Of a DNA stretch of 64,000 nucleotides, positions 44,350 through 52,140 are shown piece by piece. A program made the position numbers and the translations under genes. The stretch's first letter is position 1. Each line of letters opens with the position of its first letter. The notes beneath the pieces are model-generated. The model worked only from the letters and a program-made list of their open reading frames with translations, was not told where the DNA came from and searched no databases. Origin of the DNA: Citricoccus sp. SGAir0253 (lineage in GTDB: Bacteria; Actinomycetota; Actinomycetes; Actinomycetales; Micrococcaceae); the NCBI RefSeq assembly GCF_005877055.1, contig NZ_CP039424.1, positions 1,922,001 through 1,986,000 on the forward strand, read 5' to 3'.

Positions 44350-45509
44350 TCAGCCGGCCCGCTGCAGCCCCGCCGCGGCGTGCCCCGCCTTCGGCGACGG
44401 CAGGCCGACGGCCGTCCCGGGGCGGGGGAACACCCGCACCTCCCCGACCACGCTGATGGCCACGCGGTCCCCCGGCAGGGGCAGGTCCCGGCCGAGCAGG
44501 CGGGCGCGGACGCCGTCCACGGGCTCCGGCAGTTCCTCGGGCAGGCCGTCGGCTGCGGCCACGCCGGGTACGGTCGCGGCGTCCCCGGGCAGGTCGAGCT
44601 CCACGATCGCGTCATGGCCGAAGTACTCCACCTCGCGCACGGTGGCCTCGCACGGGGTGGTGCCGGACGGGGCCACGGTGATCTGCTCGGGCCGGATCAT
44701 CGCCTGGACGGGGCCGTCCGCGGCGGTGCCGCGCACCGGCAGGTCGCCGAGGGCGCAGCGCAGCCGGCCGCCGGACACCGTCCCGGACACGAACACCGCG
44801 TCTCCCAGGAAGGCGGCGACGCCGGCGTCCGCGGGGTCCCCGTAGGCCTCACGGGGGCGGGCCACCTGCCGGAACCGGCCGCCGTCGAGGATGGCCACCT
44901 CGTCGGCGAAGGACAGCGCCTCGCCCTGGTCGTGGGTGACCAGCACGGCGGTGGCGCCGGTGGCCTTCAGGGCGCGGGCGGTCGCCTCGCGGGTGGCGGC
45001 CCGCAGGGCGGTGTCCAGGGAGGAGAACGGCTCATCCAGCAGCACGAGCTCGGGCCGCGGGGCGAGCGCCCGCGCCAGCGCCACGCGCTGCTGCTGCCCG
45101 CCGGAGAGCTGGTCCGGCCGGCGGTCGGCCGCCTCCGCGGGCAGTCCCACGAGCTCGAGCAGCTCGAGCACCCGGGCGCGGTGCCGGCGGCGCGGCCAGG
45201 GCAGCCCGAAGGCGACGTTGGCGGCCACCGTCAGGTGCGGGAACAGCCCGCCCTCCTGGCGCACGTAGCCCACGCCCCGGCGCTCGGGCGGGACCCAGGT
45301 GCCGGGCCCGGCCACCGCGCGGCCGCCGATGCGCACCTCGCCGGAGCGCGGGGCCAGGAAGCCGGCCACGACGCGCAGCAGCGTCGTCTTGCCGTTCCCG
45401 GACCCGCCCAGCACGGCCGTCGTGGTGCCGGCGGCGACCGTCAGGTCCACGTCCTGCAGCACCGCGTCACGGCCGTACCCGGCGGTGACGCCGCGCAGCG
45501 TGAGCTCGC

Positions 45510-45513
<4 letters not shown>
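44350..45513 (-). CDS. ferric iron ABC transporter, ATP-binding protein
   Basis: The 387-aa ATPase is of the FbpC/PotA type. Walker A is GGSGNGKT (36-43, with Asn where Ser or Ala is usual), then YVRQEGGLFPHLTVAANVAF, LSGGQQQR, LLDEPFSSLD, and a C-terminal TOBE/regulatory domain (AMIRPEQITVAP). It energises the permease encoded upstream, with which it overlaps by 4 bases (ATGA). Last gene of the iron uptake set. Confidence 0.88.
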
Positions 45514-47181
<1,668 letters not shown>

Positions 47182-47198
<17 letters not shown>

Positions 47199-48240
47199 CC
47201 GTCATCAGCTCGATCACCGTGCCGGAGTTCAGCGCGGAGGGGTCGACGGCGGGGGCCTCGAGCTCGTCCAGCGGGGGCAGCGCCGGGTCGGACTCCACGC
47301 CCTCGCCGACGGCGTACTCCATGGAGCCGGAGTCCACGAGCGCCTGCTGCCCCTTCGGGCCGGTGACGTACTCGAGGAACTGCTGGGCCTCGTCCGGCAT
47401 GTCCGAGGACGCCAGCACGCCGCCGGCGGACAGGCTCACGAAGGCCCCCGGGTCCTCCCCGCCGAAGTAGTGCAGCCTCGTGTTGCCGCTGCCCTCGCCG
47501 GCCTCGGCCTGGTCGCGGTACCAGTAGTAGTGGTACATGATGCCGACCGGCACCTCGCCGGCGTTGACCGCCTTCATGGTGGCGATGTTGTTCTGGTACA
47601 CCTCGGCGTTCTCGGCCAGGGACTCCAGCCACGCGCGCGTCTCCTCCTCGCCGCGCTCGGCGAGCATCCCGGCCACGATCGCCTGGAAGTCCGCGCCACC
47701 CGGCGCCGCACCCCACTTGCCGGCCCACTCCGGGTCGGCGAGGTCCATCATGGACGTCGGCAGCTCGTCCTCGCTGATGAGGTCCGGGTTGTAGACGAGG
47801 ACCGTGGAGCGGGCGGCGATCGGCACCCACAGTCCGGAGGAGGGCGACAGGTCCTCGCGCAGCTGCTCGCGGGTGCCCTGGTCCACCTCCGCCAGCAGGC
47901 CCTCGCGCTCCACGACGGTCATGGCCGGGGAGTTCTCCGTGAGGAAGACGTCCGCCGGCGAGGCCTCACCCTCCTGGACGATCATGTGCCCCATCGAGGA
48001 GTCCTGGCCGTCGCGCACCTGCGTGGGGATCCCGGTCTCCTCCGTGAACGCCTCCGCCACGGCCTCGGTGACCTCGATGTGCTGGGCGGAGTAGACCTGC
48101 AGCGTGTCCGGCCGTGCCTCGTAGGCCTCCTCCGCGGAGGTCCCTCCGCCCGCCGGTTCCCCGGCTCCGCCGCCGCACGCGGTCAGGGCCAGCGGCAGGG
48201 CCAGGGCGAGGGCGAGCAGGGAGCGGGTCGTGGTCGGCAT
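47182..48240 (-). CDS. ferric iron ABC transporter, substrate-binding lipoprotein
   Basis: The 352-aa protein has a lipoprotein signal ending LTAC (C22). It has an FbpA-like fold: LQVYSAQHIEVTEAVAEAFT, SPADVFLTENSPAMTVVE, IAARSTVLVYNPDLI, and the iron-ligand-like Tyr cluster MYHYYWYRDQAE near 237-248. It binds ferric iron or a small ferric chelate outside the membrane. It lies 79 bases downstream of the iron-box-linked synthetase fusion, on the same strand. Confidence 0.88.
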
Positions 48241-48319: not shown

Positions 48320-51169
48320 TCAGGGCTGCGGTGCGGGGACGAGGCCCTGCAGCCGCCGCATCGGCCGGTCGGCGAGCCACCACACGAGGCAGCCGGTGGC
48401 CAGGGCGGCGACCGTCTCGACGACGTCGTCCTCGAAGGAGGACAGCACCATGAACTGGACGAGGTAGACGTACAGCGAGGCTGCGGCCAGCACCCCCACG
48501 AGCGGCAGGGCGAGCGCCGGGACGCGCAGCCGCGGCACCCAGACCAGGACCAGCAGGCCGACGAGGATCGCCAACTCGCGGCCCGGCTGGTCGGGGAAGA
48601 ACCATGCCCCGCCGACCACGGCGAGCCCGGCGGTGATCCACCGGCGCCGCGTGCTGTCCGCCCACGCGGCGGCCGCCCCGACCCCCACGAGCCACAGCGT
48701 GGTCGGCATGATCGACTGGGCCATGTGGCTGTCCGTGAGGGACAGGACGAGGAACCGGGGCACGAGTGCGGCGGCCGTGAACCACGCGGCCACCCGCCAC
48801 GGGTCCCGCCGCCAGGCCCGGGACACCGCGGGGACCGAGAGCACCGCCACGAGCACGAGCACCGAGGCCAGCAGGGCGTCGATGAACCAGTACTCGTTGG
48901 CCGTGGACCCCTCGGTGGTGTCCCCGGTGATCCAGTGGCTCAGCATGATGTTCGACCACCCGTAGCGGCCCGTGGTCAGCATGCCGACGGCGGCGATCAG
49001 CATGGCGGGCACGGCCACGCCGATCGCGATGCGCGCGGTGGAACGCCACCGGCCGGCCACCGTGGGCACGGACAGCCCGAAGCGGGCGGTGTTGAACCCG
49101 GCCACGGCCATCAGCACGTGGGCCCCGCCCATGAGGTCGATGAGGTCGGCGTGCGAGCCGCAGATCGCCACCACGGCGACAGCGCGCAGTACCACGGAAG
49201 TCTCCACGCCGCGCCAGGCCAGCGCCGCGCGGGCGCGGTCCCGCCACGGGCGTCCCGGGGCACGGCGCGTCCCCTGGCGACCCGGGCGGTCCCCGCGCCC
49301 CGGGGCGGTGGGGGCGGCGCCCCCGACCGCGGCACGCCCAGCCGGTGCCCCACGGTCAGGGCCGGCGGCACGGCCGCGCTCCAGGCCGAGCTCCACGAGG
49401 TCGGACAGCGGACGGTGGTGCCAGTCGCGCGGCAGGGGCCCGAGGAGCCGCTCCAGCCGGGCCGAGGCCTGCACGTGGCTCAGGGAGTCCCCACCGTGCT
49501 GCACGAACGTCCGGTCCAGGTCGGCGGCGTCGAGCACGAGGACCGAGGAGACGGCCGCGGCGACGCCGGCGGCCAGGCGCGTGCGCGCGTCCAGGGGCGC
49601 GGTGGCGTCGGCCGCCTCGCCGGCGTGCTCGCCGGCAGCCGGCGCGCGGTCCTGTTCCGGAGCCGTCCCCCGGGGTCCCGGTGCGGCCGGGGCCGCGGTG
49701 CGCGGGCCGGCGTCGGGCGCCGTGGCCTGCTCCGCGACGGAGCGCACCAGGGCCGCGCTGGCGGGGCGGTCCACCTTGCCGTTGGGCAGCCGGGGCAGGG
49801 GCGCGACGGCGACGGCGACGGCCGCCGGGCCGAGCCCGGAGGCGGTGCCGGCGAGCCGGCGCACCTCGGTGGACACCTCGCGGTCCGCTCGCCCGGCCAC
49901 GGGCTCGACGGCCACGGTGAGCCGGCTGCCGTCCCCGCCCACGCACGCGCGGTACCCGGCCGTGTCCAGCCGGTCCTCGACCGTGCCGACGTCGATCCGC
50001 ACGCCCATGACCTTGGTGAAGCCGGAGCGCCGGCCGACCAGCCGGAGCAGGCCGTCGGGGCCGATGCCCCCCAGGTCGCCCGTGCGCAGTTCGTCCAGCA
50101 TGGCGCCCAGGGCGAGGTCGTCCGGGTGCTCGGCGTAGCCCATCATGACGCCCGGCCCGCGGACCACCACCTCCCCGGCCCCCTCGGCGGCCTCGGGGAC
50201 GGTCGTGTCCAGGTGCAGGGTCGTGTCCGCGACCGGCCGGCCCACCGAGTCGGGGTGCGCTGCGACCAGGGCGGGGTCCAGCACGCAGATCCGGGCGGTG
50301 GCCTCGGTCTGGCCGTACATCACGGACAGCCCCCAGCCGTGGCGCTCGCCCAGCGTCGCCGTGCGGAGCACCCGTTCCGGGCCCATCCGGCCGCCGGCCT
50401 GGGCCACGAGGCGCAGCGAGGGGTGCGGCCGGTCCAGCGCACCGGTGGTCTCCATCAGCTCCACGAGGTGCGGCACGACGGCCAGGGTGGTGACGCCGAG
50501 CCCGTCGACCGCCGACCAGAAGTCCTCGTCCAGCACCGATCCCTCGTGCAGCACCACGGAGGCGCCGGCCACGAGGTGGGAGTGCAGCACCGAGAGGCCG
50601 AAGGTGTAGTGCAGCGGCAACGAGGTGATGGCCCGGTCCTCGGCGGTGAGCGCCAGGGCCTGGGCGATCGCGGCGGCGTTGTGGTGCAGGTTGGCATGGG
50701 ACAGCCGCACGAGCTTCGGCGAGCCCGTGCTCCCGGAGGTGCTCAGCAGCAGCGCGAGGTCCGGGTGCAGCAGGTGCCGCGGGGCCGCCTGCAGCACCTC
50801 GAAGGGGCGCACCGGATCCCCCGTGGCCGTGACGTCCGGGGCGTAGCGCTCGAGCACGGCGGAGGCCCGGTCCTCGCCGGCCGTCACGAGCGCCACGTGG
50901 CCGGCCTCGAGGGTGGCCAGGTAGGACAGCACGCCCAGCAGGTCCCGGCCCAGCGGCAGGTGGACGAGCCGGCGGCCCTCGGCCGCGTCCGGCAGCCGCG
51001 CCGCGAGGCCGGCGACGGCCGCGCCCAGCTCGGCGTGGGACATCGCCCGGCCGGAGGCGGACACCACCGCCGGGCGGTCGGCGTGGACGGGGTCGGCGAG
51101 CGGCGCGAGCGAGGGACGAGTGGGACGGTCGAGCACCGGGGATGGCGTCGACCCGGCGGTCAGGGTCAC
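48320..51169 (-). CDS. adenylation - carrier protein - membrane acyltransferase fusion, iron-regulated
   Basis: The 949-aa fusion has three parts. An AMP-forming adenylation domain (1-480) has P-loop STSGSTGSPK (143-152), YGQTEA (285-290), TGD (363-365) and PNGKVDR with catalytic Lys465. A carrier domain (525-600) has the phosphopantetheine Ser in GGDS (559-562). A 300-residue membrane part (655-949) with about ten helices resembles acyltransferase-3 proteins. It would activate an acid, load it on the carrier and hand it to a membrane acyl acceptor. The GTG at 51169 was chosen because longer starts lie inside the iron box. No condensation or thioesterase domain is present. Confidence 0.8.
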   Translation of the reverse strand: MTLTAGSTPSPVLDRPTRPSLAPLADPVHADRPAVVSASGRAMSHAELGAAVAGLAARLPDAAEGRRLVHLPLGRDLLGVLSYLATLEAGHVALVTAGEDRASAVLERYAPDVTATGDPVRPFEVLQAAPRHLLHPDLALLLSTSGSTGSPKLVRLSHANLHHNAAAIAQALALTAEDRAITSLPLHYTFGLSVLHSHLVAGASVVLHEGSVLDEDFWSAVDGLGVTTLAVVPHLVELMETTGALDRPHPSLRLVAQAGGRMGPERVLRTATLGERHGWGLSVMYGQTEATARICVLDPALVAAHPDSVGRPVADTTLHLDTTVPEAAEGAGEVVVRGPGVMMGYAEHPDDLALGAMLDELRTGDLGGIGPDGLLRLVGRRSGFTKVMGVRIDVGTVEDRLDTAGYRACVGGDGSRLTVAVEPVAGRADREVSTEVRRLAGTASGLGPAAVAVAVAPLPRLPNGKVDRPASAALVRSVAEQATAPDAGPRTAAPAAPGPRGTAPEQDRAPAAGEHAGEAADATAPLDARTRLAAGVAAAVSSVLVLDAADLDRTFVQHGGDSLSHVQASARLERLLGPLPRDWHHRPLSDLVELGLERGRAAGPDRGAPAGRAAVGGAAPTAPGRGDRPGRQGTRRAPGRPWRDRARAALAWRGVETSVVLRAVAVVAICGSHADLIDLMGGAHVLMAVAGFNTARFGLSVPTVAGRWRSTARIAIGVAVPAMLIAAVGMLTTGRYGWSNIMLSHWITGDTTEGSTANEYWFIDALLASVLVLVAVLSVPAVSRAWRRDPWRVAAWFTAAALVPRFLVLSLTDSHMAQSIMPTTLWLVGVGAAAAWADSTRRRWITAGLAVVGGAWFFPDQPGRELAILVGLLVLVWVPRLRVPALALPLVGVLAAASLYVYLVQFMVLSSFEDDVVETVAALATGCLVWWLADRPMRRLQGLVPAPQP

Positions 51170-51188
51170 ATAGGTTAGGCTAACCTGC
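51170..51188. promoter_or_regulatory. DtxR/IdeR-type iron box
   Basis: ATAGGTTAGGCTAACCTGC matches 16 of 19 positions of the actinobacterial iron-box consensus (core AGGTTAGGCTAACCT). It abuts the start of the fusion gene and lies 31 bases before the phosphopantetheinyl transferase. A TAGCCT -10-like element of the minus gene lies inside it, so Fe-loaded repressor should silence both divergent genes. Confidence 0.88.
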
Positions 51189-51219
51189 CCCAAATAGCCC
51201 AGGCAATCACGAGGTAAAT

Positions 51220-51783
51220 ATGACGGTGGAGATCCGGTGGGCTCTGCTCACCGCCGCGCACGCCGGCCTGCTGCCCGTCCTGAGCCCGCTCGAGCGCCGG
51301 CGGATCGAGTCCCTCGACCGCCCGGCGGACCGGGCCCGCTCCCTCGTCGCCGCGGCGCTGCTGCGCGTGGCGGTCGCCGAACACCTGGGCCAGTCCCCCG
51401 CCGAGGTGGCGGTGGACCGCACCTGCCCCGAGTGCGGCCGGCCCCACGGCGCGCCACGGATCCTCGGCGCCGGACCGACCCCCCCGGTGCCGCACGTCTC
51501 CGTGTCCCACTCCGGCCTGCTCGTCGTGGTCGCCCTGGACCCCGGCAGCCCCGTGGGGGTGGACGTCCAGCGCGCAGCCGACCTGGAGGACCCGGCCGGC
51601 GCTGCCGCGTGGGCGCGGTCGGAGGCGCTGTTCAAGGCGCGGGCGACCGGCTACGCGGCGGACCGCGTCTCAGTACGTCATCTCGAGGCGCCCCTGGACG
51701 GCTACGCCGCCGCCCTGGCGGGCGCGCCGGACCGCCTCGCGTCCCTGCGGGCCAGCCGCTGGGACGGTGCTGCCGGCCGGTGA
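51220..51783 (+). CDS. 4'-phosphopantetheinyl transferase (Sfp type)
   Basis: The 187-aa enzyme carries VSVSHS (93-98), GVDVQ (113-117) and WARSEALFK (131-139). These correspond to the Sfp motifs SxSHS, G(V/I)D(V/I)E and WxxKEAxxK. Two common residues differ: Gln for the second acidic residue, and Ser for Lys before Glu. It transfers phosphopantetheine from CoA to a carrier Ser; the divergent fusion protein, which shares its iron box, is the obvious partner. A Cys pair (CPEC, 69-72) may bind a metal. Confidence 0.85.
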   Translation: MTVEIRWALLTAAHAGLLPVLSPLERRRIESLDRPADRARSLVAAALLRVAVAEHLGQSPAEVAVDRTCPECGRPHGAPRILGAGPTPPVPHVSVSHSGLLVVVALDPGSPVGVDVQRAADLEDPAGAAAWARSEALFKARATGYAADRVSVRHLEAPLDGYAAALAGAPDRLASLRASRWDGAAGR

Positions 51784-51917: not shown

Positions 51918-51954
51918 GTGAGGGCAGTCACAGGCTGCAGGGCCGTTGACGTGC

Positions 51955-52140
51955 GGCGGGAGAGTCCCGTCCAGCAGCACTGGTCGGGCGCCGAAGGAGC
52001 AATTCCTCCCCGGGAAACTCTCAGGCAACCGTACCGCCGCACAGAGGCACATCTGGAAAGTAGCGCGGAGTCACTCCGGGCTCGCCGACGGAGCAACCCC
52101 CTCCCCTCCGGGAGGGACGAAAACTCTCAGGCCACGCAAC
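51955..52140 (+). ncRNA. tandem glycine riboswitch (gcvT element)
   Basis: Two aptamers lie in series. Aptamer 1 (about 51957-52030) shows GGGAGAGTC, GGGCGCCGAAGGAGCAA and GGGAAACTCTCAGGCA. Aptamer 2 (about 52045-52136) shows GCCGACGGAGCAA and GACGAAAACTCTCAGGCC. These are the conserved blocks of the glycine riboswitch, which turns on glycine-use genes when glycine is plentiful. It precedes gcvH-glyA-sdaA, all glycine or serine metabolism. Exact ends are approximate. Confidence 0.92.

Follow-up and report, generated by a model that had tools for sequence, protein, structure and literature searches.

A predicted iron-controlled adenylation–carrier–membrane acyltransferase fusion beside Fe(III) transporter genes in Citricoccus sp. 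SGAir0253

We analyzed a stretch of 64,000 nucleotides of Citricoccus sp. SGAir0253 (contig NZ_CP039424.1, positions 1,922,001 to 1,986,000), which is called the window and whose own numbering is used throughout unless stated otherwise. Our subject is a gene that encodes, in one chain of 949 amino acids, an adenylation domain, a carrier domain and a membrane acyltransferase domain. It begins with a GTG codon that directly abuts an iron box of the DtxR/IdeR type. Beyond the box, a phosphopantetheinyl transferase (PPTase) is encoded on the opposite strand, and the fusion gene is followed on its own strand by the three genes of a YfuA/SfuA-type Fe(III) ATP-binding cassette (ABC) transporter (44350-48240). 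An earlier reading of this DNA, made from the letters alone (the sequence-only reading), had missed the transporter. The features of the locus are as follows.

48320-51169, minus strand: fusion protein, 949 amino acids, adenylation–carrier–membrane acyltransferase (open reading frame, Pfam, homologue alignments, AlphaFold model)
49736-51082, minus strand: adenylation (AMP-forming) domain of the fusion, residues ~30-478 (Pfam AMP-binding, 133.5 bits; VinN match; column counts)
49364-49591, minus strand: carrier domain of the peptidyl carrier protein type, residues ~527-602, with the motif GGDS and Ser562 as phosphopantetheine site (Pfam PP-binding, 19.4 bits)
48323-49222, minus strand: membrane acyltransferase domain, acyltransferase-3 (AT3)/HGSNAT-like, residues ~650-949 (Pfam Acyl_transf_3, 25.1 bits; model; HGSNAT fold)
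51170-51188, no strand assigned: DtxR/IdeR-type iron box ATAGGTTAGGCTAACCTGC between the divergent genes (16 of 19 positions)
51220-51783, plus strand: compact Sfp-type 4'-phosphopantetheinyl transferase, 187 amino acids (AASDHPPT_N, 28.3 bits, cut-off 27; syntenic)
47182-48240, minus strand: FbpA, Fe(III)-binding protein of the YfuA/SfuA/HitA class with the tyrosine motif YHYYWYRDQ (PDB matches)
45510-47198, minus strand: FbpB, Fe(III) ABC transporter permease (BPD_transp_1 in two stretches; syntenic)
44350-45513, minus strand: FbpC, Fe(III) ABC transporter ATPase (ABC_tran and TOBE_2; start set by orthologue comparison; syntenic)

Domains of the fusion protein and its partner transferase

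The carrier and membrane domains of the fusion scored just below their Pfam cut-offs (19.4 bits against 20.8 for PP-binding and 25.1 bits against 31 for Acyl_transf_3). Both domains are real, because relatives pass the cut-offs, key residues are invariant and the model of the C-terminal domain matches HGSNAT. Both families were found above cut-off in the homologues L088 and L089, and Acyl_transf_3 also in L064. The domain assignment draws on homologue alignments of 24 and 16 sequences; Ser562 of the carrier, the catalytic Lys465 of the adenylation (A) domain, and R662 and H673, both in the first helix of the membrane domain, are invariant across all aligned relatives. The C-terminal domain was modelled with a predicted local distance difference test score (pLDDT) of 86.7 and a predicted template modelling score (pTM) of 0.86. 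Foldseek gave no significant match to this model; HGSNAT was found only by VIA-align, with a Z of 13.1 over 248 residues, followed by GWT1 (Z 9.0) and, as the next unrelated fold, a Z of 5.4. The HGSNAT match rests on the distance between 13.1 and 5.4 and on the Pfam match of the relatives, this being a helical protein, for which middling Z values are common. Fold and profile, the latter above cut-off in relatives, place the domain in the AT3/HGSNAT type.

The sequence-only reading had recognized the same architecture, an AMP-forming domain, a GGDS carrier and an acyltransferase-3-like part in 949 residues, and had remarked on the missing condensation and release domains. Both observations were borne out by Pfam, which detected only AMP-binding, PP-binding and Acyl_transf_3; the architecture is further backed by the relatives and the fold. 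With no condensation or release domain in the chain and no further gene for partner modules conserved around the close orthologues, the fusion does not have the make-up of a siderophore synthetase of the nonribosomal peptide synthetase (NRPS) class. Nor does Pfam detect in it the IucA/IucC domain of the NRPS-independent siderophore (NIS) synthetases.

The A domain had VinN as its closest sequence match in the PDB, and its fold matched CahJ, McbA, MenE and oxalate-CoA ligase at an identity of ~25%. In A domains that activate amino acids, an Asp holds the amino group of the substrate (D230 in VinN, D235 in GrsA; PMC11253843). The equivalent of position 235 is T189 in the fusion and Thr, Cys or Ser in every aligned relative, never Asp. 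An amino acid is therefore an unlikely substrate, as judged from these alignments, and an alpha-amino acid was rejected as a candidate. Of the 'acyl or aminoacyl group' proposed by the sequence-only reading, the acyl half is supported and the aminoacyl half is not. The equivalent of VinN R331 is R293 in the fusion and Arg in all aligned relatives, and the substrate could be an acid that carries a further negatively charged group.

The PPTase, intact and above its family cut-off, is of the Sfp type by family match and by its catalytic motifs SHSG, GVD and EAxxK, which are kept in its orthologues; a transferase of this type divergent from the fusion had been described correctly in the sequence-only reading. 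Just beyond the PPTase gene, a glycine riboswitch (Rfam RF00504, 73.8 bits) occupies 51947-52046 on the plus strand. The genes past it apparently encode glycine cleavage protein H, serine hydroxymethyltransferase and serine dehydratase.

Iron box, transporter genes and distribution

The box at 51170-51188 was the single match to the DtxR/IdeR pattern in the window, and 100 shuffles gave 0 matches. The whole genome (3.56 Mb) contains five such sites, and the reversed pattern, used as a control, gave none. The other four sites adjoin genes for a pyridoxal-dependent decarboxylase, a siderophore-interacting protein and two Peripla_BP_2 (siderophore-type) binding proteins; thus, the pattern picks out iron genes in this genome. 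The boxed decarboxylase gene lies ~4 kb before an IucA/IucC gene (genome positions 3002019-3006911, outside the window), and the two probably mark a desferrioxamine-type siderophore locus.

A scan of genome contigs yielded 18 close orthologues of the fusion (54-79% identity), among them sequences from Micrococcus, Arthrobacter, Paeniglutamicibacter, Georgenia, Isoptericola, Promicromonospora, Cellulomonas, Antribacter, Raineyella and Ornithinimicrobium. The comparison of gene neighbourhoods that the sequence-only reading had proposed gave the divergent PPTase in 18/18 and fbpABC directly downstream of the fusion in 15/18. Genes in high-GC loci could be called only crudely. The box was present in all 18, located 0-31 bp before the fusion start, with 2-4 mismatches against a mean of ~9 in windows drawn at random from these loci. 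No other neighbour, an exporter included, was conserved among the close orthologues. For the three loci that lack adjacent fbpABC (L011-L013), an FbpA homologue is encoded at another site of the genome; one of these homologues is very close (E 8e-123) and has a box beside it.

In nearly all close orthologues (e.g. L010, L015, L018, L021 and L022), the box ends 0-7 bases from the start codon of the fusion. This spacing suggests a leaderless fusion transcript whose promoter would be covered by the repressor. A promoter scan at the box did not find a sigma-70 consensus, a result that is uninformative in this phylum.

More distant fusions were boxed as well. Plasmid-borne copies in Rhodococcus and Arthrobacter (L057, L059, L060 and L066) have a box in front with 2-4 mismatches, and on the Rhodococcus plasmids the gene order is box–fusion–fbpABC. 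In Nocardioides, a box with one mismatch precedes the reversed arrangement, fbpABC–fusion. The latter order also occurs on a Mycolicibacterium (M. rufum) plasmid, where a box was looked for and none was found. Five further Micrococcales homologues (L087-L091), whose A domains are 45-50% identical, all carry a box with 1-3 mismatches directly upstream. Because these homologues have no adjacent transporter, iron control appears to follow the fusion itself. At L087, L088, L089 and L090, the boxed fusion gene stands alone, with neither a transporter nor a PPTase gene nearby (the PPTase is missing beside 4/5 of the set); such a gene is perhaps the minimal unit of the system.

Taken together, the shuffles, the genome control and the conservation exclude a chance box. 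The fusion gene has what marks a DtxR/IdeR-regulated gene, a 19-bp palindromic promoter box conserved over orthologues. The 16/19 box reported by the sequence-only reading thus holds, and the regulation deduced from it has gained from the boxes at 18 close and five distant homologues and in Nocardioides and Rhodococcus. By sequence comparison, the fusion is predicted to be a conserved, iron-controlled enzyme.

The downstream FbpA matched YfuA (E 1.4e-107) and SfuA (E 2.2e-102) in the PDB. The YHYY motif is common to all 21 fusion-linked FbpA homologues of Actinomycetota that were compared, and sequence match and tyrosine motif together identify a YfuA/SfuA-type Fe(III)-binding protein. Since only 79 bases separate the fusion stop from the fbpA start and there is no second box in the window, fusion and fbpABC are likely to be co-transcribed.

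A search with the membrane-domain alignment found the fusion gene in 9 of 59 related genomes and in 2 of 8 within the genus. By these counts, with which the plasmid copies agree, the fusion appears to be an accessory, patchy trait. Outside Actinomycetota, homologues with 32-35% identity were found in records of Rhizobium, Leisingera, Phyllobacterium and Roseateles, none of them with a DtxR-type box. On the Rhizobium plasmids, the relatives L063 and L065 adjoin genes for an AAA ATPase and YcaO/TfuA. Relatives in plasmid records are named only 'AMP-binding protein', and we found no description of an iron-controlled adenylation–carrier–acyltransferase fusion in the open-access literature.

A possible role in iron supply

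Because of the iron box and the linkage to an Fe(III) transporter, the most likely reading, to which we lean tentatively, is that the fusion makes an extracellular iron ligand that feeds ferric uptake. Starting from the box and its conservation, the architecture, the fold, the linkage and the transporter class, all obtained by computation, we infer the acid, the acceptor, the product, its outward transfer, its iron binding and its hand-over to the transporter as follows. In iron starvation, IdeR/DtxR would leave the shared box, and the PPTase and the fusion would be expressed, with the transporter genes following by read-through from the fusion. The PPTase would attach phosphopantetheine to Ser562. 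The acid that the A domain would then adenylate and load onto the carrier would be a carboxylic acid that lacks an alpha-amino group; it may be a dicarboxylic or hydroxy acid from central metabolism. HGSNAT transfers acetyl groups from cytosolic acetyl-CoA to an acceptor across the membrane. Its counterpart in the fusion would use the carrier, not CoA, as acyl donor and transfer the group to an acceptor at the outer face. The product would emerge outside without a separate exporter, which would account for the absence of a conserved exporter gene. There it would keep Fe(III) soluble or close to the membrane and hand it to the YfuA/SfuA-type binding protein for import by the ABC transporter. 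The proposal of the sequence-only reading that an acyl group is transferred at the membrane when iron is scarce is supported by this scheme's two anchors, the boxes and the transporter linkage.

Several observations weigh against an iron ligand. YfuA/SfuA-type transporters, where studied, handle Fe(III) without a dedicated siderophore, so that shared regulation may be all that the linkage reflects. None of the five distant boxed homologues (L087-L091) has fbpABC adjacent. A clear box was not found at the Demequina homologue (L028) or at two chromosomal homologues from Mycolicibacterium (L031 and L032). DtxR-type boxes were likewise not found at the alphaproteobacterial homologues, which also lack an adjacent iron transporter; the one exception is Phyllobacterium, where transport genes that include another kind of binding protein adjoin the homologue. 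The enzyme type is therefore not iron-specific everywhere; it may have arisen before its iron role, or other iron regulators may operate in those bacteria.

The main rival is modification of the envelope. Here, the acceptor of the acyl group in iron starvation would be a lipid, a teichoic acid or a wall glycan, and its acylation would either create a surface Fe(III) ligand for the binding protein or change the envelope for another purpose. The fold match fits this proposal in that HGSNAT/AT3 enzymes, as is generally known of the family, act on glycans and lipids across the membrane. Several boxed homologues stand alone without a transporter or pathway gene, as would suit a ubiquitous acceptor, and iron genes are not near the alphaproteobacterial homologues. 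The Fe(III) transporter adjacent to most close orthologues, and recurring in other gene orders, suggests instead a link to iron import and not a general envelope change. We consider envelope modification rather unlikely, though it is the strongest of the alternatives.

It is distinctly less probable that a real iron box governs an enzyme with an iron-unrelated or iron-sparing purpose, e.g. the synthesis of a low-iron signal or a defence metabolite. IdeR/DtxR regulons do hold some non-uptake genes, but the linkage to fbpABC recurs in different gene orders.

A polymer synthase is very improbable. In this case, the membrane domain would polymerize the carrier-bound acid into a polyanionic, iron-binding chain, and an A-domain pocket not of the amino-acid type would agree with that. 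Adenylation, carrier and membrane parts likewise form one chain in epsilon-poly-lysine synthetase and a proposed polymalate synthetase (PMC10522769, PMC9210645). The C-terminal part of the poly-lysine type, however, is built from ~730 residues, which form six helices and three soluble domains (PMC10522769), as opposed to ~300 residues with an HGSNAT-like fold here, and a polymer would probably not fit an FbpA-type pocket. We set this candidate aside, since a similar domain content is combined with a different C-terminal architecture.

The slightest chance falls to tailoring of the desferrioxamine-type siderophore that the boxed decarboxylase before IucA/IucC apparently marks in the same genome: the binding protein encoded beside the fusion belongs to the free-Fe(III) class and not to Peripla_BP_2, and an IucA/IucC match is missing in 12/18 fusion genomes (some of them incomplete assemblies), so that we rejected a general role of the fusion in desferrioxamine tailoring.

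Most known siderophores follow one of two assembly logics, NRPS/polyketide synthase (PKS) and NIS, and free-Fe(III) transporters are usually thought to need no siderophore. The fusion is a conserved, boxed single enzyme that belongs to neither logic and recurs next to genes for a free-Fe(III) transporter. Provided that its product binds iron, the fusion would represent a third, minimal siderophore logic. Genome searches that look for condensation or IucA/IucC domains probably would not recognize it as a siderophore pathway, and it could account for iron uptake in those Actinomycetota that have no recognized siderophore genes. In its full form, this proposal is a siderophore route of one protein that falls into neither the NRPS nor the NIS class and is patchy and partly plasmid-borne in Actinomycetota: one chain would make a carboxylate iron ligand from central metabolites and release it outside as part of the same reaction, and uptake would run through a YfuA/SfuA-type transporter; we regard this specific version as doubtful. 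If the fusion decorates the envelope instead, it would constitute an iron-controlled surface modification, likewise undescribed in the literature searched.

Comparison with known systems

In the D-alanylation system, DltA, DltC and DltB, an adenylation enzyme, a carrier and a membrane acyltransferase, move an activated acyl group across the membrane. These are separate proteins that use an MBOAT-type transferase and D-Ala, whereas the fusion is one chain with an HGSNAT/AT3-type domain and a pocket not of the amino-acid type. HGSNAT and acyltransferase-3 enzymes have the same membrane fold and take the acyl group from acyl-CoA (HGSNAT) or another cytosolic donor; in the fusion, the attached adenylation–carrier unit would supply it.

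The A domain has its best sequence and fold matches in VinN, the 3-methylaspartate adenylating enzyme, and in MenE and oxalate-CoA ligases, and it shares the Arg at position 331 with VinN. Unlike VinN, the fusion family has replaced D230 and carries its A domain joined to a carrier and a membrane domain; identity to all these enzymes is low. The transporter resembles YfuABC, SfuABC and HitABC in the class of its binding protein (YHYY), its two-domain permease and its TOBE ATPase. To our knowledge, no biosynthetic fusion or PPTase is part of those operons.

The epsilon-poly-lysine synthetase family (CHPA synthetases, including PosA) likewise unites adenylation, carrier and a C-terminal membrane part in one polypeptide without a thioesterase, and PosA stands alone in its genome (PMC10522769). 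Members of this family differ in the large C-terminal part described above and in their diamino acid substrates (PMC10522769). In the fusion, the ~300 C-terminal residues are mostly membrane helices of the HGSNAT/AT3 fold with no soluble domains, and the pocket lacks the amino-binding Asp. The fusion thus combines known parts, an adenylation–carrier unit and a transmembrane acyltransferase, and its surroundings point to iron acquisition.

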